Origin: Kribbella qitaiheensis
GTDB lineage: Bacteria; Actinomycetota; Actinomycetes; Propionibacteriales; Kribbellaceae
DNA: 64,000 nucleotides
Reading direction: 5' to 3'
NCBI RefSeq assembly: GCF_014217565.1
Contig: NZ_CP043661.1
Coordinates: 7,378,001 to 7,442,000, forward strand
Made by a program: the position numbers and the translations under genes. The notes under the pieces were generated by a model. The model did not search any database. It was not told the origin of the DNA and was given only the letters and a program-made list of their open reading frames with translations. Below, piece after piece: positions 7,713 to 55,966 of the stretch (positions within the stretch are counted from its first letter, which is position 1; the number at the start of each line of letters is the position of its first letter).

Positions 7713-8785
7713 TCTCGATCCTGCTCGCGGGCGCCGTGTCGATGGCGCTCACGCTGCTCGGCACCCGGCTGGCGATCAACGTGCTGGCCAACCGCGGCTA
7801 CGGCCAGGAGATCCGCGACGACGGACCGACGTCGCACCACACCAAGCGCGGGACGCCGACGATGGGCGGCACCGTCTTCATCACCGCGACCATCGTCGGG
7901 TACTTCGTGGCGAAGCTGTTCACGATGACCCAGCCGAGCGCGTCGGCGCTGCTGGTGCTGTTCATGTTCGCCGGGATGGGCGCGGTCGGCTTCCTGGACG
8001 ACTTCATCAAGATCGTCCGGCAGCGCAGCCTCGGCCTGCGCAGCAAGGCGAAGCTGGCCGGGCAGACGCTGGTCGCGGTGGCGTTCGCCGTCCTCGCGCT
8101 GCAGTTCCCCGACGATCGCGGCCAGCGGCCAGCGTCGCCGTTCATCTCCTTCATCCGCGACATCAGCTGGCTGCACCTGGCGCCGATCCTGGTCGTGATC
8201 TGGATCCTGCTGCTGATCGCCGGGATGTCGAACGGCGTGAACCTGGCCGACGGCCTGGACGGGCTGGCGACCGGAGCCTCGATGATGGTGTTCGGCGCGT
8301 ACACGCTGATCTGCATCTGGCAGTTCAACCAGAGCTGCGGGACCACGCCGGGCTCGCGGTGTTACGAGGTACGAGATCCGCACGACCTCGCCGTCGTCGC
8401 CGCGGCCCTGACGGGTGCCCTGTTCGGGTTCCTGTGGTGGAACGCGTCGCCGGCCAAGATCTTCATGGGTGACACGGGTTCGCTGTCGCTGGGTGGCGCG
8501 GTGGCCGGCCTGGCAGTGATGACCCGGACCGAACTGCTGGTGCTGCTGCTCGGCGGGCTGTTCGTCATCATCACCGCCTCGGTGATCCTGCAGGTCAGCT
8601 GGTTCAAGATCACCAAACGCACCGGCGGCGTCGGCAAACGGCTCTTCCGGATGGCGCCGCTGCAGCACCACTTCGAGATGCTCGGCTGGGAACAGGTCAA
8701 CGTGGTGATCCGGTTCTGGATCATCTCCGGCCTCTGCGTCGCCACCGGGCTCGGCTTGTTCTACGCGGAATGGGTGGCCGGATGA
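7709..8785 (+). CDS. mraY: Phospho-MurNAc-pentapeptide translocase MraY
   Basis: 358 residues with about ten hydrophobic segments. The conserved MraY features are present: an early KRGTPTMGG block, [22 protein letters not shown] and [12 protein letters not shown]. It transfers phospho-MurNAc-pentapeptide to undecaprenyl phosphate, giving lipid I at the inner face of the membrane. The GTG start at 7709 overlaps the murF stop, and the stop overlaps the murD ATG (ATGA). Confidence 0.96.
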
Positions 8786-10222
8786 GTCTGTCGACACGGA
8801 CCGACGAAGGCTGGGCGGCGACCCGTTTCGTCGTCCTCGGCTTCGGTACCGCGGGCTACGCCTGCGCCGACTCGCTGTTGCAGGCAGGGGCCGAGAACGT
8901 CGTGGTGCTGGACGACCGCGACACCGAGGCGCTCCGGGAGAAGGCGCAGATCCTCGAGACTCTCGGTGCCACCATCAAGCTTGGTGCGGGCAGCACCGCT
9001 GAGTTGCCGGCCGACGTGGAGATCGTCGTCACCTCGCCCGGCATCCCGCCGCACGCACCGCTGCTGGCCGCCGCGGCGGCTCGCGACGTCCCGATCTGGA
9101 GCGAGATCGAGCTGGCCTGGCGGCTGCGCGATCCCGCGAACGCCGCGCCCTGGCTCTGTGTCACCGGCACCAACGGCAAGACCACGACGGTCCAGATGCT
9201 GACCTCGATCCTGACCGCGGCCGGCCACCGTGCCGTTGCCGCCGGCAACGTCGGGCTGCCGCTGCTCGAAGCCGTGATGGACCCGGAACCGTTCGACGTG
9301 ATCGCGGTCGAGCTGTCCAGCTACCAGCTGCACTTCACCCAGTCGATGTCCCCGCACTCCGCGGCGGTGCTGAACATCGCACCGGACCATGTCGACTGGC
9401 ACGGATCGATGGAGGGCCTACACCGCCGACAAGGGCCGGATCTACGAGAACTGCCAGATCGCCTGCGTCTACAACGTCGCCGACCCGGTGACCGAACAGC
9501 TCGTGGTCGACGCGGACGTGATCGAGGGCTGCCGCGCGGTCGGTTTCACCCTCGGTATGCCGGCGATCTCGATGGTCGGCCTGGTCGAGGACCTGATCGT
9601 CGACCGTGCGTTCGTGGAACAGCGCGCATCGTCGGCGCTGGAGATCGCGGCCGTGGCCGACGTCAACCCGCCCGCGCCGCACAACGTGGCCAATGCGCTT
9701 GCCGCTGCCGCGCTGGCTCGCGCGTTCGGCGTACCGGCGAGCGCAGTACGGGACGGGTTGCGGAAGTTCCGGCCGGACGCGCACCGGATCGCGCACGTCG
9801 CGGAAGTTGCCGGGGTCAACTATGTGGACGATTCCAAGGCGACCAACCCACATGCGGCGCAGGCTTCACTGTCCGCCTACGAGCATGTCGTGTGGATCGC
9901 CGGCGGTCAGGCCAAGGGCGCTACCTTCGACGATCTGGTCCTTGCCGCGAAGGACCGGTTGCGGGCCGTAGTCCTGCTCGGCCAGGACAAGCAGGTGATC
10001 GCCGAAGCACTTGCCCGACACGCGCCAGATGTCCCGACGATCACAGTCGAGTCAACGGAGACTGGTGCTATGGAGACCGTGGTGGGGGAGGCTGCGAAGC
10101 TCGCACAGGTGGGAGACACCGTGCTGCTCGCACCCGGCTGCGCTTCCTGGGACATGTTCGCCAACTATGGAGCCCGCGGAGACGCCTTCGCCGAAGCCGT
10201 ACTGCGGCTGGGCGACAGCTGA
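8782..10222 (+). CDS. murD: UDP-MurNAc-L-alanine:D-glutamate ligase MurD (frameshifted in this sequence)
   Basis: The N-terminal part reads from ATG 8782 through the ATP loop [15 protein letters not shown] to [14 protein letters not shown]; the rest ([13 protein letters not shown] onward to the stop at 10222) lies in another frame. The break is at a GGGCC string, 9414-9418. Deleting one G joins the halves into a normal 479-residue MurD with the expected [11 protein letters not shown] block. MurD adds D-glutamate to UDP-MurNAc-L-Ala and is essential, and no second copy is in the window. A sequence error is therefore far more likely than a real mutation. Confidence 0.93.
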
Positions 10223-10237
10223 TCCGGGGGTGATCGC

Positions 10238-11540
10238 ATGACGACGATCACTGACCGTCCGGACGACAAGGCTGCGCCTTCCTCGTCCTCATCCCCGGCG
10301 AACGAGCGGCGCTGGGTGTCCGCGGTCAAGGACGTGCTGGACCGGCCGCTCACGTCGTACCACATCCTGCTCGGCGCCACCGGCCTGTTGCTGGTGCTCG
10401 GGCTGTTGATGGTGCTGTCGGCGTCCAGCGTCCTGTCGTACAACGTCAACCACGGCAACCAGTACGCGATCTTCTACCGCCAGCTGATCTGGGTCGGCGT
10501 CGGCCTGCCGATGGCGTACGTCGCCTCGCGGATGACGCCACGGCACTTCCGGATGCTCGCGTACGTCGCGTTGCTGGGCTCGGTGTTCCTGCTCGTGCTC
10601 ACCTACGTGCCGGGTCTGGGCAAGAACGTCAACGGCAACACGAACTGGATCTCCTTCGGCGGTCCCCTGCAGATCCAGCCGAGCGAGTTCGCCAAGCTGG
10701 CGCTGGTGCTGTGGTGCGCGGATCTCTACGCCCGCAAGCAGAAGCTGCTCACCCAGTGGAAGCATCTGCTGGTCCCGATGGTGCCGGTCTGCGGTCTGGT
10801 GATCGCGCTCATCATCGGCCAGCACGACCTGGGTACCTCGCTGGTGCTGATGGCCGTGATGGTCGGGATGATCTGGGTCGTCGGCGCACCGACCAGACTG
10901 TTCGTCGCGATGCTGGCCGTGGTCGGCACGATCGGCGGCTTCTTCGTCAGCCAGGAGAGCTACCGGATGGCCCGGGTGGCGCAGTTCATGGATCCGTTCG
11001 CGGATCCGAGCGGCGTCGGCTGGCAGGCGTACCACGCGTTCTACGCGCTCTCCACCGGTGGCTGGTGGGGCGTCGGGATCGGCAACAGCCGGCAGAAGTG
11101 GGGCAACCTGCCCGAGGCGCACACCGACTTCATCTTCGCGGTGATCGGCGAGGAGCTCGGGCTGATCGGGTCACTGACCGTGCTCGCGCTGTTCCTCACC
11201 CTGGCGTACGCCGGTGTCCGGATTGCGACCAGGACCGCCGAGCCGTTCATCCGCTACGCCGCGGCCGGAATCACGGTCTGGATCATGGCCCAGACGCTGG
11301 TCAACCTGGGTGCCGTGATCGGACTGCTACCCATCGTGGGTATCCCGCTCCCGCTTTTGTCGTACGGTGGGTCCGCACTGCTGCCGACGCTGATCGCGAT
11401 CGGCATGCTGTTGTCCTTCGCGAAGGCCGAGCCCGGCGCGCAGGGCCGCCTTGAAGGAACACCGGCGGCCGTTGTTCGGGTGGATGTCGTCGTGGCGTAC
11501 ACCTGGCCGCACTGGCCGTGAGAACACGCGGGAGCGTTGA
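10238..11540 (+). CDS. ftsW: Septal peptidoglycan polymerase FtsW (C-terminus frameshifted in this sequence)
   Basis: SEDS-family protein with about ten transmembrane helices; typical blocks are NGNTNWISFGGPLQIQPSEF, HTDFIFAVIGEELG and LPLLSYGGSAL. As written, the frame ends at 11521 with an atypical tail. If one G of the GGGCC at 11443-11447 is removed, the tail becomes AQAALKEHRRPLFGW and onward, ending at TGA 11538-11540, for a 433-residue protein. It polymerises septal glycan strands with FtsI. The ATG at 10238 lies 15 bp after murD. Confidence 0.93.
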
Positions 11541-47297: not shown

Positions 47298-48536
47298 TCA
47301 GGGGGTGTCGATGACTATTGCGGCCTCCATTTCGAGGACTCGTTGGTAGTCGTCGTCGAGGGTGGCTGCGTCGCTGTGGATGAGGATCACCCAGGCCAGG
47401 CAGGTGAAGAGGTCGACCGTTTCGGGGACGATCGCGTCCTCTTCGTGCAGGATCTTCATCCAGTGGAAGGATTTCAGCGACTCGACGTCGGCGAAGACCT
47501 CGCGGTTGCGGAAGTAGCCTTCCCGTACGGCGGAGATGAAGATGCCGCGCAGGTGTTGCACCAGATCGAAGCTGTCTCGCACCTCACCCCGCACCCGATG
47601 CGCGACCGTCCGCTTGATGTGGTTGTCCCCGGTAGCCAACTCGCTGACCATCTGGTGACCACCACCGGCCGGCCGGGCCGCGACCTCGATCAGCCGGGGC
47701 CCATCGGCCGTCATCATCACCTCGGAGTGACCACAGCCGACGCGAATACCAACGGCATCCAATACCTGCTGCGTATAAGGCCACAACGCCAGTACTTCGG
47801 GGTCGTCCGCCGCGAGGAAGTCGATCCGGTGATAGATGCCGATCTTGTCGCCGCGACTCACCTTCGTGTAGCGGCAGACGTCGACGAGCGAGTGCACCCC
47901 GTCAACCGAATAGCTGTCGACCAGATACTCGGTACCGTCGGCATACTCCTGGATCAGGACCGCGTCGTTGGTGAGACCCATCTTGTTGGTCCGGCCGAGT
48001 ACCTGGTCGAAGCGTTCCCGCCAGTTGCCGCCTTCGAAGACGATGTAGACCTCGTCGCCGGCGGCGCTCTTCGGCGGCTTGATCACCAGCCGTTTGCCGA
48101 GCAGGTCGTTCTCCTTCAGCCAGGTCTCGGCCTCGGCCGGGTCCGACGTCAGGAACTGCCGGAGCCGCGGAACACCTGCGGCAGAAAGCGCCTGGGCCAT
48201 CTGCCACTTGTCGCGCCGCGCTGAGGCCAGCGAAGGAACGTTGCCGGTGCCGGGCACCAAAATCTCGGTGAGCTGGTCACAGAGCTCGACCCCACTCTCC
48301 GCCCCCGCCACCAAGTACTCCGGCGAGTAGACCCGCAACTCCGAAGCCAGTGCCTCGACGTCACCGGTGAAATAGTGCACGTGCTCGAAGTCGTCCGGGT
48401 GCCAGCTGGTCGTGTAGGCCGGTGGTGGTTCCAGGCCACTCAGTACTGCGACCGGCACCTGCCCGGCCTCCTTGAAGGCTGCCGGATATTCCTGCCCCGT
48501 GGACAACGGGTCCACGATGATCGTGTAGTTCGACAT
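47298..48536 (-). CDS. ATP-grasp ligase 1 (carboxylate-amine ligase family)
   Basis: 412 residues. ATP-grasp core: RLVIKPPKSAAGDEVYIV (ATP lysine), VLIQEYADGTEYLVDSYSV, and the metal site HSEVMMTADGPRLIEVAARP with the glutamates preserved; the usual Asn of the IEINAR-type motif is Ala here, as in some BacD-like amino-acid ligases. Such enzymes join a carboxylic acid to an amine through an acyl phosphate. It is the last gene of the minus-strand operon, 9 bp after the exporter. I infer it couples the hydrazine unit or an amino acid; the substrates cannot be read from the sequence. Confidence 0.85.
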   Translation of the reverse strand: MSNYTIIVDPLSTGQEYPAAFKEAGQVPVAVLSGLEPPPAYTTSWHPDDFEHVHYFTGDVEALASELRVYSPEYLVAGAESGVELCDQLTEILVPGTGNVPSLASARRDKWQMAQALSAAGVPRLRQFLTSDPAEAETWLKENDLLGKRLVIKPPKSAAGDEVYIVFEGGNWRERFDQVLGRTNKMGLTNDAVLIQEYADGTEYLVDSYSVDGVHSLVDVCRYTKVSRGDKIGIYHRIDFLAADDPEVLALWPYTQQVLDAVGIRVGCGHSEVMMTADGPRLIEVAARPAGGGHQMVSELATGDNHIKRTVAHRVRGEVRDSFDLVQHLRGIFISAVREGYFRNREVFADVESLKSFHWMKILHEEDAIVPETVDLFTCLAWVILIHSDAATLDDDYQRVLEMEAAIVIDTP

Positions 48537-48545
48537 GAGGTCCTC

Positions 48546-49841
48546 CTACGAGCTCTCGCTCGGCAACGGCTCGCTGGCCGGGGTGATGTCCACTGCTGGT
48601 TCCTCTGCGGCTGTGGCTGCTCCGCTGGACATCCCGAAGTACGCGAAGACGATGCCGATCGCGCCGGCCACGCCGCACCAGACCCAGACCCGGGTACCGG
48701 CGTTGTTCCAGACCCACACACCGAGAAAAGGTCCCAGCGCGGAACCGAGGCCGAACATGGCATGCGCGGATCCGACGTACCGGCCGAGCAGTTTCGGGCG
48801 TTCTGCTGCGGCCATGCCCGGGTAGGCGAACATGGTCGGCCCGGCGATGATCTCCGCCAGCGTCCACAACAGCGTGCCGATCACGAAGATCGCGATGCCG
48901 CCCGGCAGGGCGTAGAACGCGAGTCCGCCACCGAGCAGGACGAAACCGATGATCGCGACGATCCGGGCCGGCCAGTGCTGGACCACCTTGGTGACCAGCA
49001 ACTCGCAGGTGATCACGATGAAGCCGTTCAACGCGACGACCGCACTGAACCACCAGGTGGAAAAGCCTTCCGACTTCATGTGCAGCGGAAGGACCGCCAG
49101 GTACTGCATGTAGATCGCCGCGTTGATGAACATGCACGCCAGGAACAGCACGTACTTGTAGTCGCGCAGTACTGCGAGGTACCCGCCCTTCGGCTCGGCC
49201 GCGACCGAGTCGTCGACCGTGTCCGCGACCTCCGCCGTCTTGCGTCCAGGCAGCGCGATGATCGCCACTGCCGCGTACGCCAGCGCCGCAAGGGCTTCAC
49301 CGATGAACAGCAGGTTCCACGAGATCGCGACCAGGGCCGCACCGATCAGCGGAGCTGCCGTCGTACCGAGGTTCATCGCCAGCCGGTAGACCGCGAAGAT
49401 CATCACCTGACGATTCTTCGGTGTCAGCTCGGTCAGCAGGGCAGCCGAAGCCGGCCGGTAGAACTGCCCGACCGCGCCGGCCAGCGCGACCACCACAAGC
49501 ACGGTCGCGTAGTTGGGCACGTAGGCGATCGCGAGGACGAAGCCCGCCATGCCGAACATGCTGATCATCACCGCGGCTCGCGGCCCGACCTTGTCCGACA
49601 GTGAGCCGCCGATGATCAGGCCGATCACCGAGCCGCCGCCGTAGATGCCCAGCGCCGTACCGGCCTGGACCTCGCTGAATCCCTTCGAGGTGGTCAGGAA
49701 CAGCACCAGGAAGACCTGCAGGAACCAGCCGAGCTTGTTCACGAAGACGCCGACGAGCAGCGCCTTCACCGGCAGTGGCGCTTCCCGGATCGTCGACCAG
49801 ATGCCCGTGCTCTCAGCCGAAGGGGCAGAGGCTGCGGTCAT
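48546..49841 (-). CDS. MFS transporter, probable exporter
   Basis: 431 residues with about 12 transmembrane helices and the signature loop GGSLSDKVGPRAAVMIS between helices 2 and 3. The ATG at 49841 overlaps the preceding ATP-grasp stop (ATGA). In a biosynthetic operon this is probably the product exporter and self-resistance gene. C-terminal about 25 residues are a soluble tail. Confidence 0.88.
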   Translation of the reverse strand: MTAASAPSAESTGIWSTIREAPLPVKALLVGVFVNKLGWFLQVFLVLFLTTSKGFSEVQAGTALGIYGGGSVIGLIIGGSLSDKVGPRAAVMISMFGMAGFVLAIAYVPNYATVLVVVALAGAVGQFYRPASAALLTELTPKNRQVMIFAVYRLAMNLGTTAAPLIGAALVAISWNLLFIGEALAALAYAAVAIIALPGRKTAEVADTVDDSVAAEPKGGYLAVLRDYKYVLFLACMFINAAIYMQYLAVLPLHMKSEGFSTWWFSAVVALNGFIVITCELLVTKVVQHWPARIVAIIGFVLLGGGLAFYALPGGIAIFVIGTLLWTLAEIIAGPTMFAYPGMAAAERPKLLGRYVGSAHAMFGLGSALGPFLGVWVWNNAGTRVWVWCGVAGAIGIVFAYFGMSSGAATAAEEPAVDITPASEPLPSESS

Positions 49842-51097
49842 GACGACGACTCCTTCTGATGCCCTGACCAGCTCAGTGCCTTCTCGGCGGCGTCCAGTCC
49901 GGCCCGGCAGTCGTCCAGCGAGGTCGCCACCGCGGTCACATAAGCGATCCGTCCCCAGAGCGTGCCTTCCGGCGGGGGACTGGTGGTCGTCCCCGGCTCC
50001 ATCAGTACGACGAGTTGGTCGATGGTCGCGGGCAGACCGGCCTCGTCGAACGCGACCGAGTCCAGCACGGTGTCGTTCTCGTCCACGTAGAAGAAGCGGA
50101 CGCCACCGACCATCGCGCGATCCGGCACCAGCTCCGGGGTCCGGCCGCACGCCACCGCCGCGGCCGCGAGCCCCGGGTCGGCCCCGGTCGCCTGCAGACC
50201 GAGGTACGGGATCATGTCGCCGCCGATCCGGGCGTTGATCTCGATCACCTTCGGCCCGTCGGCCGTGATCATGATCTCTGTGTGCGTGACGCCGTCGCTG
50301 AACCCGATCGCGGCATGCGCGTCGACCAGCACCTTCATCAGCTCGTGGTCGGCGAGCAAGGGATCGGCCGCGTCGACGAAGTGCCCGACCTCCTCCGCGT
50401 ACGGCGGGTAGCCGAGCTCCTTGCGGGCCAGGCAGAACGGCGTCACCTGGCCGTGGAAGATCGCCGAGTCGATGCTGATCTCGTACCCGTCGGCGAACTC
50501 CTCGACCAGCACCTTGACGTCGTAGTGCGGCGCCTCGGGCACGGTCGTGTCGTGCGCGAACTCCCAGTTGTCCTTCAGCTCCTCGGCCGAGTTCACCTTG
50601 ACCACACCGAGGCTGGCGGCCAGCGCGCGCGGCTTCAGGATCACCGGGTAGCCGAGCTTGTCGGCCGTGACGAGCGCCTCGTCCACGGTGTCGACCAGGA
50701 TCGACTGCGGCTGTGGGACGCCTCGCTCGGCGAGCGCAGTACGGGTGAGGTGTTTGTCCCGGCAGCGGTTGACCATGTCAACGTCGCCGCCCGGGAGGCC
50801 GAGCGTTTCGGCCACGTGGGCGGTCTGCAGGATGCGGGCCTCGTCCCAGCAGAGCACACCGTCGATCGGCTGGTCCGCGTGAAGCTTCTTCGCCGCGACG
50901 ACCAGCGCCTCGGCGTCGAGCGTGCTCTCCAGCACGGTCCAGCCGTCGATGTACTCCTTCTCCCACGACGGTTCCGAGTGCAGGAACATGTGGATCCGGT
51001 ACTGCGGGGCGATGGATCGCAGGATGTACTCGCGGAACAGGCGCATCCCGGTCGCCACCACCAGCAGGTGCGGTCGGTCGATCGGTTCGTCAGTCAT
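49838..51097 (-). CDS. ATP-grasp ligase 2 (carboxylate-amine ligase family)
   Basis: 419 residues. ATP-grasp features: GYPVILKPRALAASLGV with the ATP lysine, KVLVEEFADGYEISIDSAI, and the metal site HTEIMITADGPKVIEINARI with Glu, Glu and Asn intact. ATG 51097 is chosen for its GGAGG seven bases upstream; the frame is open up to 51244 but that part is not protein-like. It shares only fold-level similarity with ATP-grasp 1, so the two probably make different bonds. Overlaps the exporter by 4 bp. Confidence 0.87.
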   Translation of the reverse strand: MTDEPIDRPHLLVVATGMRLFREYILRSIAPQYRIHMFLHSEPSWEKEYIDGWTVLESTLDAEALVVAAKKLHADQPIDGVLCWDEARILQTAHVAETLGLPGGDVDMVNRCRDKHLTRTALAERGVPQPQSILVDTVDEALVTADKLGYPVILKPRALAASLGVVKVNSAEELKDNWEFAHDTTVPEAPHYDVKVLVEEFADGYEISIDSAIFHGQVTPFCLARKELGYPPYAEEVGHFVDAADPLLADHELMKVLVDAHAAIGFSDGVTHTEIMITADGPKVIEINARIGGDMIPYLGLQATGADPGLAAAAVACGRTPELVPDRAMVGGVRFFYVDENDTVLDSVAFDEAGLPATIDQLVVLMEPGTTTSPPPEGTLWGRIAYVTAVATSLDDCRAGLDAAEKALSWSGHQKESSS

Positions 51098-51098
51098 C

Positions 51099-51474
51099 TC
51101 AGACCTCCCGGATTGGTGCCGGGATCTGCTCGATGTACGAGACCCCCGTGCTGCCGTCGTTGCGGCGGAAATGGTCGGCGATCCGGATGTTGCCGCGGAT
51201 GTCGTACGCCGGGATGCTGTGGCACTCGCCGCTGACCAGGTCACCGGGCCGCCGTCAGCAGGCAGTAGGCGGCCTCGATCGAGCCGTCGGACTGCAGGTG
51301 GCCGACCAGCCGCCCGCTGCGCAACGATCCACCGGCGTAGAACTCGGCCCAGATCAGGTCGCCGTCGCGGTGATACTGCCCGTACGGCGTATTCGCGCCG
51401 GCTTCGTCGGGGACCAGCTGGAACCAGACCCCGTCGACATCCGGCGGGTTCGCCTCCGGAACGGCGGCACTCAC
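51099..51474 (-). CDS. Small protein of unknown function (frameshifted in this sequence)
   Basis: From GTG 51474, overlapping the hydroxylase stop (GTGA), it reads VDGVWFQLVPDEAGANTPYG through IEAAYCLLTAA; the frame then breaks at GGGCC 51246-51250. Removing one base continues as GDLVSGECHSIPAYDIRGN to VSYIEQIPAPIREV, stopping at 51101-51099, just before the next ATG, for 124 residues. The beta-rich pattern, ending in an aromatic/charged GDGST-VSYIE block, resembles small stand-alone proteins annotated variously in actinobacteria. I do not assign a function; a role beside the flavoenzymes or ligase is only suggested by position. Confidence 0.65.
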
Positions 51475-52757
51475 CACTTCACCGCGCAGAGCTCGTCGGA
51501 GATCGGGTAGATCTCCCGGTCGAACATGGAGTTGAGCACGATCGCGGCCCGGACCGGTAGTTGCGTCAGGCCCGCATTCGTCAGGCCGTGGCTGTACCGG
51601 CTCGCGTTGAACGAGAAGATCCGGTGCCCGTTCATGCCCTTCCAGCGGATCGAGTAGTCCGGCTCGACCAGCATCTCGCCGTCGTCGTCGTAGTCGATCC
51701 GCTCCCGCAGGTCGTCGTCGAACGGCGCCTGGACGTGCTCGCGGCCGGCGGCGACCACCAGGTGCCGTACCTCGTGCTCCTCGGGCATCTCCGGAGTCGT
51801 GCACCGCAGCCGGATGTTGCCGTCGGCAAGTTGTTCCGCCGAGGTGACGTCGCGGCCGGGCAGCAGCGTGACCGGGAACCGGCCGAGCGTCAGCAGGCCG
51901 TCGTAGTTGCCCTGGTAGAGCGCTCGCAGACCGCCCGGGGTGATCGCGTCGCCGGAGTAGCGGGAGTCCACGATCATCTCGCGGCGCTTGCCGCGGTTCA
52001 GACCCTGCAGGAACTGGATGTGCGACGGCCGGTACAGCTCGTTCGCCATCGGGGAGTCGTCGATACTGCGGAACCACTGGTTCCGGCCGAGCCAGCGGAT
52101 GTCGGTGAAGCCCGAGCCGAGCAGCCGCAGTACACACTCCAGACCGGTCTGGCCGCCGCCGACCACCGCGATCGGCTCGGCCTTGGACGCTTCGAGGCCG
52201 GGCAGCCGGACACCGAGCTCGTCGGCGATGAAGGCCTGCTCGCGATCCAGGCCGCGGACGTACTCCGGCCAGACCGGCCGGGTGCCGAGACCGAGTACGA
52301 GGTGCTCCGACTGCGCTACCGGAGTGCCGTCGACGCAGACCTCGAAGCCGTCGTCGGTGATCGAGATCGAGTCCACCCGGCAGTCGAAGTTGACCACGCC
52401 GAGCCGCTCGGTGGCCCAGGCCAGGTAGCGCTCGTACTCGATCCGGGGCAGGGCGTCGAACTGGGAGTTGATCAGCGCGTAGAGCCGCCCGGAGGTGACC
52501 AGGTAGTTCAGGAACGTCAGTTCGTGCCGTGGATCGACCAGCGAGACCAGGTCCTTCATCCAGCCGGTCTGCATCCGGACCCCGGGGTAGAGCAGTGGCG
52601 TGTGCCAGCCGGCTACCGGGCGGGAATCGAACAGGGCGAGCTTCTCGGTGGTGACGCCCTTGTACAGGGCCGCCAGCGACAGGTTGGACGGACCGGCTCC
52701 GATACCGATCGTGTGGTACCTGGGCGGGTGGCCGTTGCCTCGTTCCGTGATGGTCAT
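51471..52757 (-). CDS. L-lysine N6-hydroxylase-like flavoprotein (Spb38/IucD family)
   Basis: 428 residues from ATG 52757. FAD motif GIGAGPSNLSLAA (18-30), NADPH motif AVVGGGQTGLECVLRLL (about 195-211), DDSPMANELYRP, and the C-terminal RYSHGLTNAGLT region characterise the K_oxygenase N-hydroxylases. It would make N6-hydroxylysine, substrate of the hydrazine synthase. GGAG sits 9 bp before the ATG, supporting separate translation, yet the frame is continuous with the preceding oxidase and has no stop between. Stop overlaps the next gene. Confidence 0.88.
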   Translation of the reverse strand: MTITERGNGHPPRYHTIGIGAGPSNLSLAALYKGVTTEKLALFDSRPVAGWHTPLLYPGVRMQTGWMKDLVSLVDPRHELTFLNYLVTSGRLYALINSQFDALPRIEYERYLAWATERLGVVNFDCRVDSISITDDGFEVCVDGTPVAQSEHLVLGLGTRPVWPEYVRGLDREQAFIADELGVRLPGLEASKAEPIAVVGGGQTGLECVLRLLGSGFTDIRWLGRNQWFRSIDDSPMANELYRPSHIQFLQGLNRGKRREMIVDSRYSGDAITPGGLRALYQGNYDGLLTLGRFPVTLLPGRDVTSAEQLADGNIRLRCTTPEMPEEHEVRHLVVAAGREHVQAPFDDDLRERIDYDDDGEMLVEPDYSIRWKGMNGHRIFSFNASRYSHGLTNAGLTQLPVRAAIVLNSMFDREIYPISDELCAVKW

Positions 52758-53852
52758 GCGCTTGTTCTCCGTCCGCGAAGTGGTGGTGCGCGTGTTTTCT
52801 CCGGTGACGAGCGGCCCGAGCAGGTCGCTCGCTGCCGTCCGGCTTGCGGCCAGCGCGGTTTTCACGCTGCCGCCGGACCCACCGGTGAAAGTGAAGAGCC
52901 GATGTGTGCTGCCGAGTACCGACCAGAGCGTCAGTACGGGCGGATCGGCATAACAGTCGGCGTTGGAGGCCGAGTTCCTGGTCTCCAGCAGCCGTAGGTG
53001 CGGCAGTCGTTCACCCGCGATCCGGACGGCCTCTGCGGCCAGGTCCGGAAGCGGATCAGTACTGCCGGGTGGTACCGACCAGCGGTGGGTGTCGATGCCG
53101 AGGAGGAGCCCTCCGTCGGCGGTCGGACGCCCGTACAGATCGCTGGTCTCGTCGATGAACATGGTCGGCAGGGCGCCGTCCACGTCGTACACGGCGACCT
53201 GGATCGCCTTGGTCCGGTACGGCTCGGCCGGCAACGCGTTGCCCGCGAGCAGTCCCGGCGTCCACGGTCCCGCGGCCACCACGACCAGGTCGTACCGGTT
53301 GCTGTCGCCAGGGGTGCGGCAGCTGACCGAGCCGTCGGGGTGGGGGACCAGACCGAGCACAGGGCCCGGTACGACGTGGCTGTGCGCGCCGCGAGCGAGC
53401 TGCTCGATAACCAGCGAGCGCAACTGGTCAGGCCGAATGAAACCGGCCCGCTTCTCCAGTACGCCGACCGTGCCCTCCGGCAGGCCCTGCCAGCCACGGC
53501 TCCGCAGTGCGGCCCCGTCGATGATCTCGGTGGAGCCCGGGTGCAGGTGTTCCACGTCGTTGACTGCCTGCTCCAGCCCGGCGTACGGCTTGAGTAGATA
53601 GGTGCAGCCCGTCTCGACGTACCCGACCTGCTCCAGCAGGTCAGGGGTCTCGAACAGCTCGGCCAGACTCTCGACAGCCAGTCGCCGCTGCTCCGGGTGA
53701 GTCTCGAAGCCCCGGACGCCGCCACCGGACGCCGCCGTGGCGTCCGTTCCCGGTACGCCGGTGACGAGGTCGACCTCGACGTCCGGATACTCGGTCAGCC
53801 GCCGGGCGAGCAGGGCGCCCGCGATACCGGCCCCGATCACGCAGATCCGCAT
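52758..53852 (-). CDS. D-amino-acid-oxidase-like FAD oxidoreductase (Spb39-like), in frame with the hydroxylase
   Basis: 365 residues before the hydroxylase start. N-terminal GxGxxG motif ICVIGAGIAGALLARRL, a DAO-type core and FTGGSGGSVKTALAA near the end. Spb39-type enzymes oxidatively cleave the lysine-glycine hydrazine to give hydrazinoacetic acid. No stop codon separates it from the hydroxylase, so the two could be one 793-residue protein joined by a short charged linker. But a GGGCC string (52817-52813 on the minus strand) is just before the join; losing one G would end this gene at TGA 52756-52754, an ATGA overlap like its neighbours. Confidence 0.85.
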
Positions 53853-53856
53853 CGCC

Positions 53857-55251
53857 CTACTCGCCTGTCCCGGTCAGGACCGCGCGCAACGAGCCGGTGT
53901 CCCGGACGCCGCCGGCGAGCAGGTCGATCATGATCCGGACCGCCAGCGCCGGGTCGAAACCGGACAGCCGGAGCGCGTCCTCGGCCCTGGCCAGCTCTAT
54001 CTCTGCCAGTGCCGGATGGAATGCCTCCGAACAGACCCGGGTCCCGTCCAGCAATGGGCCCACCCGCTCCGCGAATGCGCGGAACGCTTTCCAGCTGAAG
54101 TCGGTCTGATATCGGTCCGGACGGTCCCACGCCAGGTAAAGCCGGACCATTGCCGGGTCTTCGGTGCGGAGCATTTCATTCGCCGGCACCAGGTGATTCC
54201 GGCTGGTCGAGAACTTGCTTCCGTCGAGCAGGTAGAACTCGTTCACGACCAGGCCGGAAAGGGGTAATGGATTCACCCCGGCGGCCGCCCAGATCGCCTG
54301 CCAGTACACGGCGTACCAGTACGCGTTGTCGAGGCCGAGGAAGTGCCAGAGGCTTTCCACCCGGCCGAGTGCGACCAGGTATCCGGGCAGATCGGCGGCG
54401 GCCGGGTCGACCGCTTTGGCGACGTTGTAGAGATCGGTCAGGGCGACCTCGGTGTACGGGCCGATCCGCAAGCCGGTCAGGGCGGAGTCGCCCTCGATGC
54501 CCCAGTTCGTCGGGTAGGCCAGCGCGATCTCGGGCAGTTGGCCGGCTAGTTGCCGGCCGATCAGGGCACGGACCTTGGGCGGGAGTTCGGCCCGCAGCCA
54601 CATCTCCGTCATCGCCTCGCGGTGGTCCTCCATCCGGAGTACCGGGACTGTCGCCTGGAAGGGCCGTGGCTCGCCGCCGCACCGGCCGCAGACCGGATCG
54701 ATCATGCTGTCGACGTAGGTGAAGGCCCCGCACTGCTCGCAGGCCCCACCCGCGCCAGGTGCTTTGCAGCTACGGCAGAGGCCGACCAGATACGACTCGT
54801 GCAGGGTCCGCGCGCAGTCCCGGCAGGCGTGCAGCGTGACCTCGCGCATCGGCGTTGCCCCGCTGGCGACCAGGTGATTCATCAGTTGCCGGATGATCGG
54901 CGCGTGCTCGTCGGTGAGCGGATCGCTGAACCGGTCGTAGCCGATCCGGCCCAGCTCGTAGGTCTCCTTGATGTCCGCGCGGAAATCCGCCGTCATCACG
55001 CCGACGTCTACGCCCTCGCGTTCGGCCCGGGTCAGCACGTAGTTCTGGTGGACGTCCAGGCCGGTCGTGACCGCCACCTGTTCGCCACGCGCCCTGGCCG
55101 CGCGGGCTGCGATGTCGGCGGCGAGGTAGGGACCGGCGAGGTGCCCGACATGCAGCGGACCGTTGACGGTCGGCTGCGGGTAGGTGATCACCGTGATCGG
55201 CTCGAGGCCTGGCTCAGGTGCGTCTTGGTCGGGCCCGGCCGGCTCAGGCAT
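53857..55251 (-). CDS. Methionyl-tRNA-synthetase-like hydrazine-forming enzyme (Spb40 C-terminal module)
   Basis: 464 residues. Class I catalytic signatures are HVGH (34-37) and KFSTS (346-350), and the MetRS zinc-knuckle cysteines are retained (CRDC, CRSC, CEQC, CGRC, about 145-205). Only about 110 residues follow KFSTS, too little for a full anticodon-binding domain, so tRNA charging is unlikely. In Spb40, Tri28 and related enzymes such a module is fused to a cupin and condenses N6-hydroxylysine with glycine. Here it is a separate gene that overlaps the cupin by 8 bp. Confidence 0.88.
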   Translation of the reverse strand: MPEPAGPDQDAPEPGLEPITVITYPQPTVNGPLHVGHLAGPYLAADIAARAARARGEQVAVTTGLDVHQNYVLTRAEREGVDVGVMTADFRADIKETYELGRIGYDRFSDPLTDEHAPIIRQLMNHLVASGATPMREVTLHACRDCARTLHESYLVGLCRSCKAPGAGGACEQCGAFTYVDSMIDPVCGRCGGEPRPFQATVPVLRMEDHREAMTEMWLRAELPPKVRALIGRQLAGQLPEIALAYPTNWGIEGDSALTGLRIGPYTEVALTDLYNVAKAVDPAAADLPGYLVALGRVESLWHFLGLDNAYWYAVYWQAIWAAAGVNPLPLSGLVVNEFYLLDGSKFSTSRNHLVPANEMLRTEDPAMVRLYLAWDRPDRYQTDFSWKAFRAFAERVGPLLDGTRVCSEAFHPALAEIELARAEDALRLSGFDPALAVRIMIDLLAGGVRDTGSLRAVLTGTGE

Positions 55252-55618
55252 GGTCGGCCGTCACTGCTTCGATCGGTCTTTCTTCGGCGACCGGCATCCA
55301 GTACGCGCTGAAGACCGTCAGCAGTTCGTCGTCCGACCGGTTCTGTACGACGTGCGCCTCGGTGCTGCTGAGCAGGAACGCGTCACCGTGCTTGATCTCG
55401 TGCACGGCATCGCCCACCAGGACGTGCGCCGTACCCGCCACAACGATCGACAGCTCGAGCTCCGGGTGCTGGTCGATCGGGCTCTCCGAACCGGGCGGAA
55501 CGCTGTACCACATTGCCTGGAACGGCATTTGCCCGCCGAGTTCGTATTGCTCCCAGCGAACTACCCGGAGATCTTTCACAAACAGGCTTTCGCCGGTGAT
55601 CAGGTCGAATGTACGCAT
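55244..55618 (-). CDS. Cupin protein (Spb40 N-terminal module as a separate gene)
   Basis: 124 residues, a single cupin fold. Candidate metal ligands are H51, E53 or E55 in DQHPELELSIVV and H89 in SSTEAHVV. In known hydrazine synthases the cupin rearranges the ester made by the MetRS-like partner to form the N-N bond. It is first in the operon; ATG 55618 has GGAGGG nine bases upstream. Its stop lies inside the MetRS-like start region, so the two are coupled, probably forming a complex in place of the fusion. Confidence 0.85.
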   Translation of the reverse strand: MRTFDLITGESLFVKDLRVVRWEQYELGGQMPFQAMWYSVPPGSESPIDQHPELELSIVVAGTAHVLVGDAVHEIKHGDAFLLSSTEAHVVQNRSDDELLTVFSAYWMPVAEERPIEAVTADHA

Positions 55619-55966
55619 GCTTCGCTACCCTCCGTAGCCGATCCGCGACGCGGCTCAAGAAGTTGTTTGAAAATGCAATGAAGGCACGGTCAGACGCTTT
55701 GATTCAGCCATGGATCAGCACCGCACGCCGCTATGGCTCCGACCACCATCGGGACCAGAAGTTCTTGCAGCGTTGGTGATTACCCGGCGACCCCCCAGTC
55801 TCCGTGGCCGAAAATATAGGGAAGGTAGCGCTCCGAGTAAAGGGGAGTACGCAACGAATTCCAGATCACCCGTAACCGGACCGGAAATCCTTCGTTATGA
55901 CACGTTTTTGTGCGCGTTGAGTATCCGATCAGTTGCGGAACGCAACTGGTCTGGCCCGGATCAGGG
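55619..55966. promoter_or_regulatory. Upstream region of the hydrazine-type operon
   Basis: 348 bp without a gene and lower in GC than its surroundings, notably 55800-55920. It must hold the operon promoter. A perfect inverted repeat, CAGTTGCG (55930-55937) and CGCAACTG (55941-55948), is a possible operator. No regulator gene is in the operon, so control may come from elsewhere. Confidence 0.5.

Follow-up and report, generated by a model that had tools for sequence, protein, structure and literature searches.

A Kribbella operon that probably joins hydrazine-forming enzymes to ATP-grasp ligases to make a peptide-like N-N compound

The operon described here lies on the minus strand of a 64,000-nucleotide stretch of Kribbella qitaiheensis DNA (contig NZ_CP043661.1, positions 7,378,001 to 7,442,000; this whole stretch is called the window, and coordinates are positions within it unless a contig is named) and codes for predicted enzymes of N-N bond formation together with two ATP-grasp ligases and an MFS exporter. 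We consider it probable (about 0.72) that the operon makes and exports a small peptide-like N-N compound through the N-N enzymes followed by ATP-grasp ligation. An earlier note on the window, made from its sequence, had proposed such a hydrazine core, consisting of a lysine/ornithine-type N-hydroxylase (NMO), an enzyme resembling methionyl-tRNA synthetase (MetRS), a cupin, and a DAO-like oxidase, working together with ATP-grasp ligases and an exporter, and the protein families, motifs, and clades bear this out. The note also thought the product possibly new, and our search of the open-access literature found no described product or named cluster for the operon.

In transcription order, the genes at 55618 to 47298 begin with the cupin (55244..55618, 124 amino acids [aa]; Pfam Cupin_2), a predicted subunit for zinc-dependent N-N rearrangement, and the MetRS-like adenylating enzyme (53857..55251, 464 aa). 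These are followed by the DAO-like oxidase fused to NMO (51471..53852, 793 aa; Pfam DAO at residues 2-341 and Lys_Orn_oxgnase at 379-703), a small protein gene that is frameshifted in the window genome (about 51099..51474), and ATP-grasp ligase 1 (49838..51097, 419 aa; Pfam ATP-grasp_4), whose start is at 51097 and not at the start of the long open reading frame (ORF). The last two genes are the MFS exporter (48546..49841, 431 aa; Pfam MFS_1) and ATP-grasp ligase 2 (47298..48536, 412 aa), a DdaF-related member of the PRK07206 family (NCBIfam NF005543). Of the eight minus-strand genes counted in the earlier note, all eight functions stand, but not eight separate genes, as DAO and NMO form the single 793-aa ORF.

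We infer a route whose substrates, reaction order, and product are all provisional. The NMO half of the fusion would act on a diamino acid, most likely L-lysine, and hydroxylate its side-chain amine. The MetRS-like enzyme would adenylate another amino acid, which is probably not glycine, and attack on it by the hydroxylamine would give an ester. The zinc cupin would rearrange this ester to form the N-N bond, and the DAO half would oxidize a C-N bond and release a hydrazino acid, which ATP-grasp ligases 1 and 2, and probably also an ATP-grasp-like protein coded at a second locus, would join to other amino acids before export by the MFS protein. The chemistry up to the N-N bond is that of characterized hydrazine synthetases (PMC8664883, PMC11705231).

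The operon is found with the same gene order in 19 of 38 sampled Kribbella genomes (the window genome and 18 others), where the earlier note had suggested looking for it, and in all 18 other carriers it adjoins DUF4439-rimP-nusA, a single chromosomal site that marks it as vertically inherited and not a recent mobile island. Among 395 genomes surveyed across the class, the only MetRS-like match above 50% identity outside Kribbella is in G104, a member of another family with the partial set MetRS-DAO-small protein-ATP-grasp 1. A different search led to a complete operon in the same order in Dactylosporangium vinaceum (L169), with identities of 56% (cupin), 51% (MetRS), 40% (DAO), 59% (NMO), 49% (small protein), 53% (ATP-grasp 1), 51% (MFS), and 53% (ATP-grasp 2). 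This order, shared by half of the Kribbella genomes at a fixed site and by D. vinaceum, takes the operon beyond chance. In one Kribbella genome (G009; L038, 6628-10366), a frame change splits the MetRS-like gene and the small gene has degenerated, and the operon may be decaying there. D. vinaceum has three MetRS-like loci, one of which (L129) has an N-N core of the same clade adjoining a nonribosomal peptide synthetase (NRPS) gene with condensation, adenylation, and carrier domains, and represents a further cluster type.

The N-N core and its amino acid pocket

The cupin carries the zinc-ligand pattern Asp-x-His-x3-Glu with a distal His, and its residues D49, H51, E55, and H89 are invariant in the 19 genomes, with the same spacing as D63, H65, E69, and H103, the zinc ligands of the RHS1 cupin (PMC8664883); PDB 5j7m is a close homologue. 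The MetRS-like protein matches only Pfam tRNA-synt_1g, with no anticodon-binding domain match, and keeps the class I adenylation motifs HxGH, D52, D296, and KFST. In the tree it falls outside the ordinary MetRS clade, and an ordinary MetRS is thus a disfavored reading. Its own clade (SH-aLRT 100) holds the Kribbella operon proteins, a Kribbella paralogue, and proteins of G104, D. vinaceum L129, Kitasatospora aureofaciens (L130), Streptomyces humicola (L138), and a Sphaerisporangium. Quick FastTree trees of NMO and DAO agree with the MetRS tree in giving one clade of hydrazine-cluster enzymes; L138 is missing from the NMO tree because the stretch searched has no NMO match. The earlier note had staked its reading on a MetRS-like protein separate from the tRNA synthetases and an N-hydroxylase that does not group with siderophore enzymes, and both placements are as it expected.

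The company of L130 and L138 in this clade raises an alternative modeled on albofungin, in which the core proceeds to free hydrazine and an ATP-grasp ligase couples this to a carboxylate as a hydrazide. These two loci are the nearest relatives and lie within type II polyketide synthase (PKS) clusters: a type II ketosynthase pair and an Asn synthase share the contig with each of them, within about 12 and 17 kb, respectively, and L138 also has a tryptophan halogenase and an O-methyltransferase, an albofungin-like gene content when compared with PMC9469721. A free-hydrazine route with the hydrazine transferase Afn14 has been proposed for albofungin (reviewed in PMC11705231). However, both loci have a berberine-bridge-like oxidase beside DAO that is absent from the Kribbella operon, and the operon has neither the Asn synthase-like hydrazine transferase nor a type II PKS, with none among the flanking genes examined. 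We regard this route as unlikely.

The earlier note itself had favored glycine and N6-hydroxylysine as precursors of hydrazinoacetic acid (HAA), which the ATP-grasp ligases would join to acids or amines, and had identified the core with the Spb38-Spb39-Spb40 set. HAA is the best-documented product of such enzyme sets, and the four enzyme classes are shared with Spb38/39/40 (PMC11705231). The identification is not supported by the phylogenies, in which the window's MetRS, NMO, and DAO all belong to an albofungin-like clade separate from an azaserine/triacsin-like clade, the latter assigned through gene order, taxa, and a Glycomyces member, as the trees contain no characterized sequence. Nor does the pocket favor it: in Escherichia coli MetRS numbering, Tyr260 is replaced by Asp and His301 by Tyr in 18 of 18 window-clade sequences, and positions R233 and W253 are Tyr in most, whereas the azaserine/triacsin-like clade has Phe, His, His, and Trp at Y260, H301, R233, and W253. 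Because the pocket differs at these several contact positions, glycine and HAA are unsupported, and we consider the HAA route quite unlikely. Amino acids known for the family are Gly, Ala, Ser, Glu, and Tyr (PMC11705231), and it is plausible from the pocket residues that the window enzyme takes an amino acid with a polar or basic side chain; L130 and L138 differ from the window clade at position 260. The NMO substrate is probably L-lysine, judged from its family and by analogy with albofungin.

Two further readings fare much worse. Before hydrazine synthetases were described, MetRS paralogues of this kind were proposed in 2010 to be peptide ligases joining methionine to a modified lysine, a prediction drawn from the same type of gene neighborhood (PMC2922099); several homologues were later shown to form hydrazines (PMC8664883, PMC11705231) and the methionine-pocket residues Y15, W253, Y260, and H301 are all replaced in the window enzyme, so that such a ligase is very improbable. 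A siderophore operon, with NMO feeding a hydroxamate assembled by the ATP-grasp ligases, is hardly credible, for although the best PDB relatives of NMO include siderophore enzymes, its tree places it among hydrazine-cluster enzymes (59% and 47% identity to the NMOs from L169 and L129, both hydrazine loci in D. vinaceum), the invariant cupin and MetRS-like pair would have no role in hydroxamate assembly, and acyltransferase and iron-uptake genes are absent from the operon.

Ligases, a small predicted barrel protein, and a second locus

Both ligases are of the ATP-grasp fold and retain its ATP and Mg motifs, and they are invariant at 266 of 419 (ATP-grasp 1) and 270 of 412 (ATP-grasp 2) positions. 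Six other genomes, with other genera among them, code for homologues of ATP-grasp 1 (37-59% identical) no more than about 5 kb from a hydrazine core, and this type of ligase is therefore tied to hydrazine pathways in general. Full-length and of the PRK07206 type, ATP-grasp 2 scores 506 bits against NF005543 (cut-off 302), 207 bits against the solved L-amino acid ligase PDB 30vh, and 151.6 bits against the dapdiamide synthase DdaF, the last being under the DdaF cut-off. The MFS protein is about 47% identical to that of a second Kribbella cluster type, described below.

The small gene is intact (about 120 aa) in 17 Kribbella relatives and degraded in one. Homologues accompany same-clade MetRS-like genes in D. 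vinaceum, Kitasatospora, and S. humicola, and a distant homologue is also present in two actinobacterial clusters (L191 and L192) with the genes NMO-cupin-MetRS-DAO-ATP-grasp 1. No Pfam family matches the protein, and Foldseek gave nothing significant for it (best E value, 4.6e-3), but the AlphaFold model of a homologue (pLDDT 92.4) is an eight-stranded barrel that VIA-align matches to avidins with a Z score of about 12. We predict from this score and the barrel topology that the protein is an avidin-like beta barrel; it may bind an intermediate, although ligand binding is a guess.

An ATP-grasp-like gene of about 440 aa, here termed CP, is beside or within the operon of D. vinaceum, the G104 set, and other clusters, among them the second Kribbella type. 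The window genome has it far from the operon (G000 C1 2819832-2821148), where it adjoins paralogues of the MetRS-like (51% identical) and small proteins, which together make up a second locus (G000 C1 2819832-2823145; L039, about 7827-11190) with an EF-G-like GTPase gene nearby and no match found to a cupin, NMO, or DAO. With matches of at least 60% identity counted, CP is present in 14 of 19 Kribbella genomes with the operon and in 8 of 8 with the other cluster type, that is, in 22 of the 27 with either cluster compared with 0 of 11 with neither (Fisher P = 3.6e-6, not corrected for phylogeny). The gene distribution makes it likely that the pathway is split over two loci. Several Kribbella genomes (L040 and L049; G001, G009, G021, G032, G033, and G035) also have an extra MetRS-type gene, 22-29% identical and with frames of about 600 aa, at about 7-14 kb from the MetRS-like paralogue; it is possibly a self-resistance copy.

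Several points weigh against the pathway as proposed here. The literature searched contains no assay with known substrates for any member of the clade to which the window's MetRS, NMO, and DAO belong. In the window genome the small gene loses its frame through a single extra base near 51250, but the remaining coding sequence is 81% identical to the nearest relative, and the break is therefore recent or a sequencing error. The likeness of CP to circularly permuted ATP-grasps is weak and under Pfam cut-offs, its AlphaFold model failed (pLDDT 37) and was not used, a profile search found no PDB relative, and five operon-bearing Kribbella genomes have no clear CP copy.

The fusion gene, promoter, and leader RNA

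The earlier note had treated DAO and the N-hydroxylase as two genes, but in each of the 19 Kribbella copies the two read through in frame with no intervening stop, and the linkers differ in length by whole codons. The Lys_Orn_oxgnase match in the fusion scores 221 bits (Pfam), and the operon thus has the linked flavin N-hydroxylase of hydrazine synthetases. The linker contains a conserved internal Shine-Dalgarno sequence (GGAG, 9 nucleotides from the ATG) and an ATG for the NMO part (52755..52790, minus strand), and it is the peak of synonymous conservation in the gene (0.966 compared with a mean of 0.717); about ten codons in a row lie close to 1.0. In the D. vinaceum L169 operon, DAO and NMO are separate overlapping genes and NMO has its own AGGAGG. 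The simplest reading that this suggests is a gene fusion that has retained the old start, which would yield both a fusion protein and a free hydroxylase.

Aligned upstream regions reveal a minus-strand promoter (55813..55841) with a -35 TTTACT and a -10 TATATT, both present in 19 of 19 operon genomes with a 17-bp spacer (18 bp in one). At the expected transcript start is a conserved box, CACGGAGACTGGGGGGTCRCCG (55785..55806, minus strand), which occurs once per genome in the 12 operon genomes searched, is absent from the other 27, and is altered in one further operon genome (G028/L035); base pairing of this invariant box shows no covariation. Upstream of the promoter is an imperfect palindrome, AACGAA..ATTTCC / GGAATTCGTT (55853..55896, minus strand), whose strict pattern has one match in the genome; no regulator gene was identified, and the palindrome is a possible operator and candidate regulator site.

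The 5' untranslated region (UTR) contains a hairpin (55628..55663, minus strand) in which an invariant CUUCU pairs with GGAGG, the Shine-Dalgarno sequence of the cupin. In the inner stem, 99.3% of cells are paired and four pairs have double changes, and hairpin covariation is 0.252 compared with 0.129 ± 0.018 when shuffled (0 of 500), with far lower values in sliding controls. We infer from this that the hairpin hides the ribosome-binding site and controls translation of the operon. There is no credible Rfam match for the leader, and a riboswitch was considered and rejected, since the central part of the UTR varies too much, both in length and in sequence, for an aptamer to be supported.

At the other end, the downstream neighbors in the window (a WYL regulator, RidA, and DUF488) are not kept beside the operon in other Kribbella genomes, and ATP-grasp 2 is therefore taken as its last gene; the other neighbors examined in the window are housekeeping genes. 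The genes at 47298-55618 include no NRPS, PKS, or CoA ligase, as the earlier note had observed.

Relationship to known hydrazine systems

Diazo and hydrazide antibiotics and anticancer compounds are among the hydrazine natural products. With eight functions and no megasynthases, the operon is compact enough for easy heterologous expression, which would probe both the amino acid specificity of this N-N enzyme clade and what ATP-grasp ligases contribute to the making of hydrazides. Two features, the conserved leader hairpin and the fused gene with its retained internal start, lend themselves to direct testing. Relative to the literature searched, the operon and its product, the fusion with an internal start, the distinct pocket, the second-locus link, and the leader RNA are new. 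A more ambitious synthesis, which we offer tentatively, is that these amount to a new hydrazine synthetase subfamily using an amino acid other than glycine, probably a polar or basic one, within a three-ligase, two-locus pathway with an internal start in DAO-NMO and translation control by the leader RNA.

Operons with a MetRS paralogue, a cupin, and a lysine N6-monooxygenase, some with an ATP-grasp protein, were predicted in 2010 (PMC2922099), with methionine-lysine ligation as the function; the excerpts consulted make no mention of Kribbella, of a DAO-NMO fusion, of a leader RNA, or of a second locus with a third ligase-like gene. Closer to hand is the second Kribbella hydrazine/ATP-grasp cluster (L041-L048; L133 in K. 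catacumbae and L140 in K. soli), which shares NMO, cupin, MetRS, DAO, ATP-grasp, MFS, and CP genes but has a MetRS that is only about 32% identical, one LAL_C2-type ATP-grasp, an SBP_bac_5 gene, and no match to the small protein. The two cluster types do not occur together in any sampled Kribbella genome. The second cluster, carried by eight Kribbella genomes, also codes for a 513-aa protein without a Pfam family.

The HAA pathway enzymes (Spb38/Spb39/Spb40, Tri26-28, and AzsL-N) belong to the same four classes and presumably perform the same chemistry. They differ in that the cupin and MetRS form a didomain protein, whereas they are separate in Kribbella, as well as in the clades and amino acid pocket described above, and the downstream chemistry of triacsin and azaserine uses carrier proteins, GNAT, and NRPS components, unlike the Kribbella ATP-grasps.

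The albofungin N-N module (abf orfD, orfE, and orfF plus abf6; Afn8, Afn9, and Afn18) is alike in having a separate cupin and MetRS-like protein, an FAD oxidoreductase, and a lysine N-hydroxylase, a likeness judged through L130 and L138. These loci, albofungin-like by gene content, have the same MetRS and DAO clades and the same small protein, and L130 also has the same NMO clade; the additional berberine-bridge-like oxidase sets them apart. The albofungin module serves a type II polyketide with an Asn synthase, and in the Kribbella operon a fused DAO-NMO is accompanied instead by ATP-grasp ligases and an MFS exporter.

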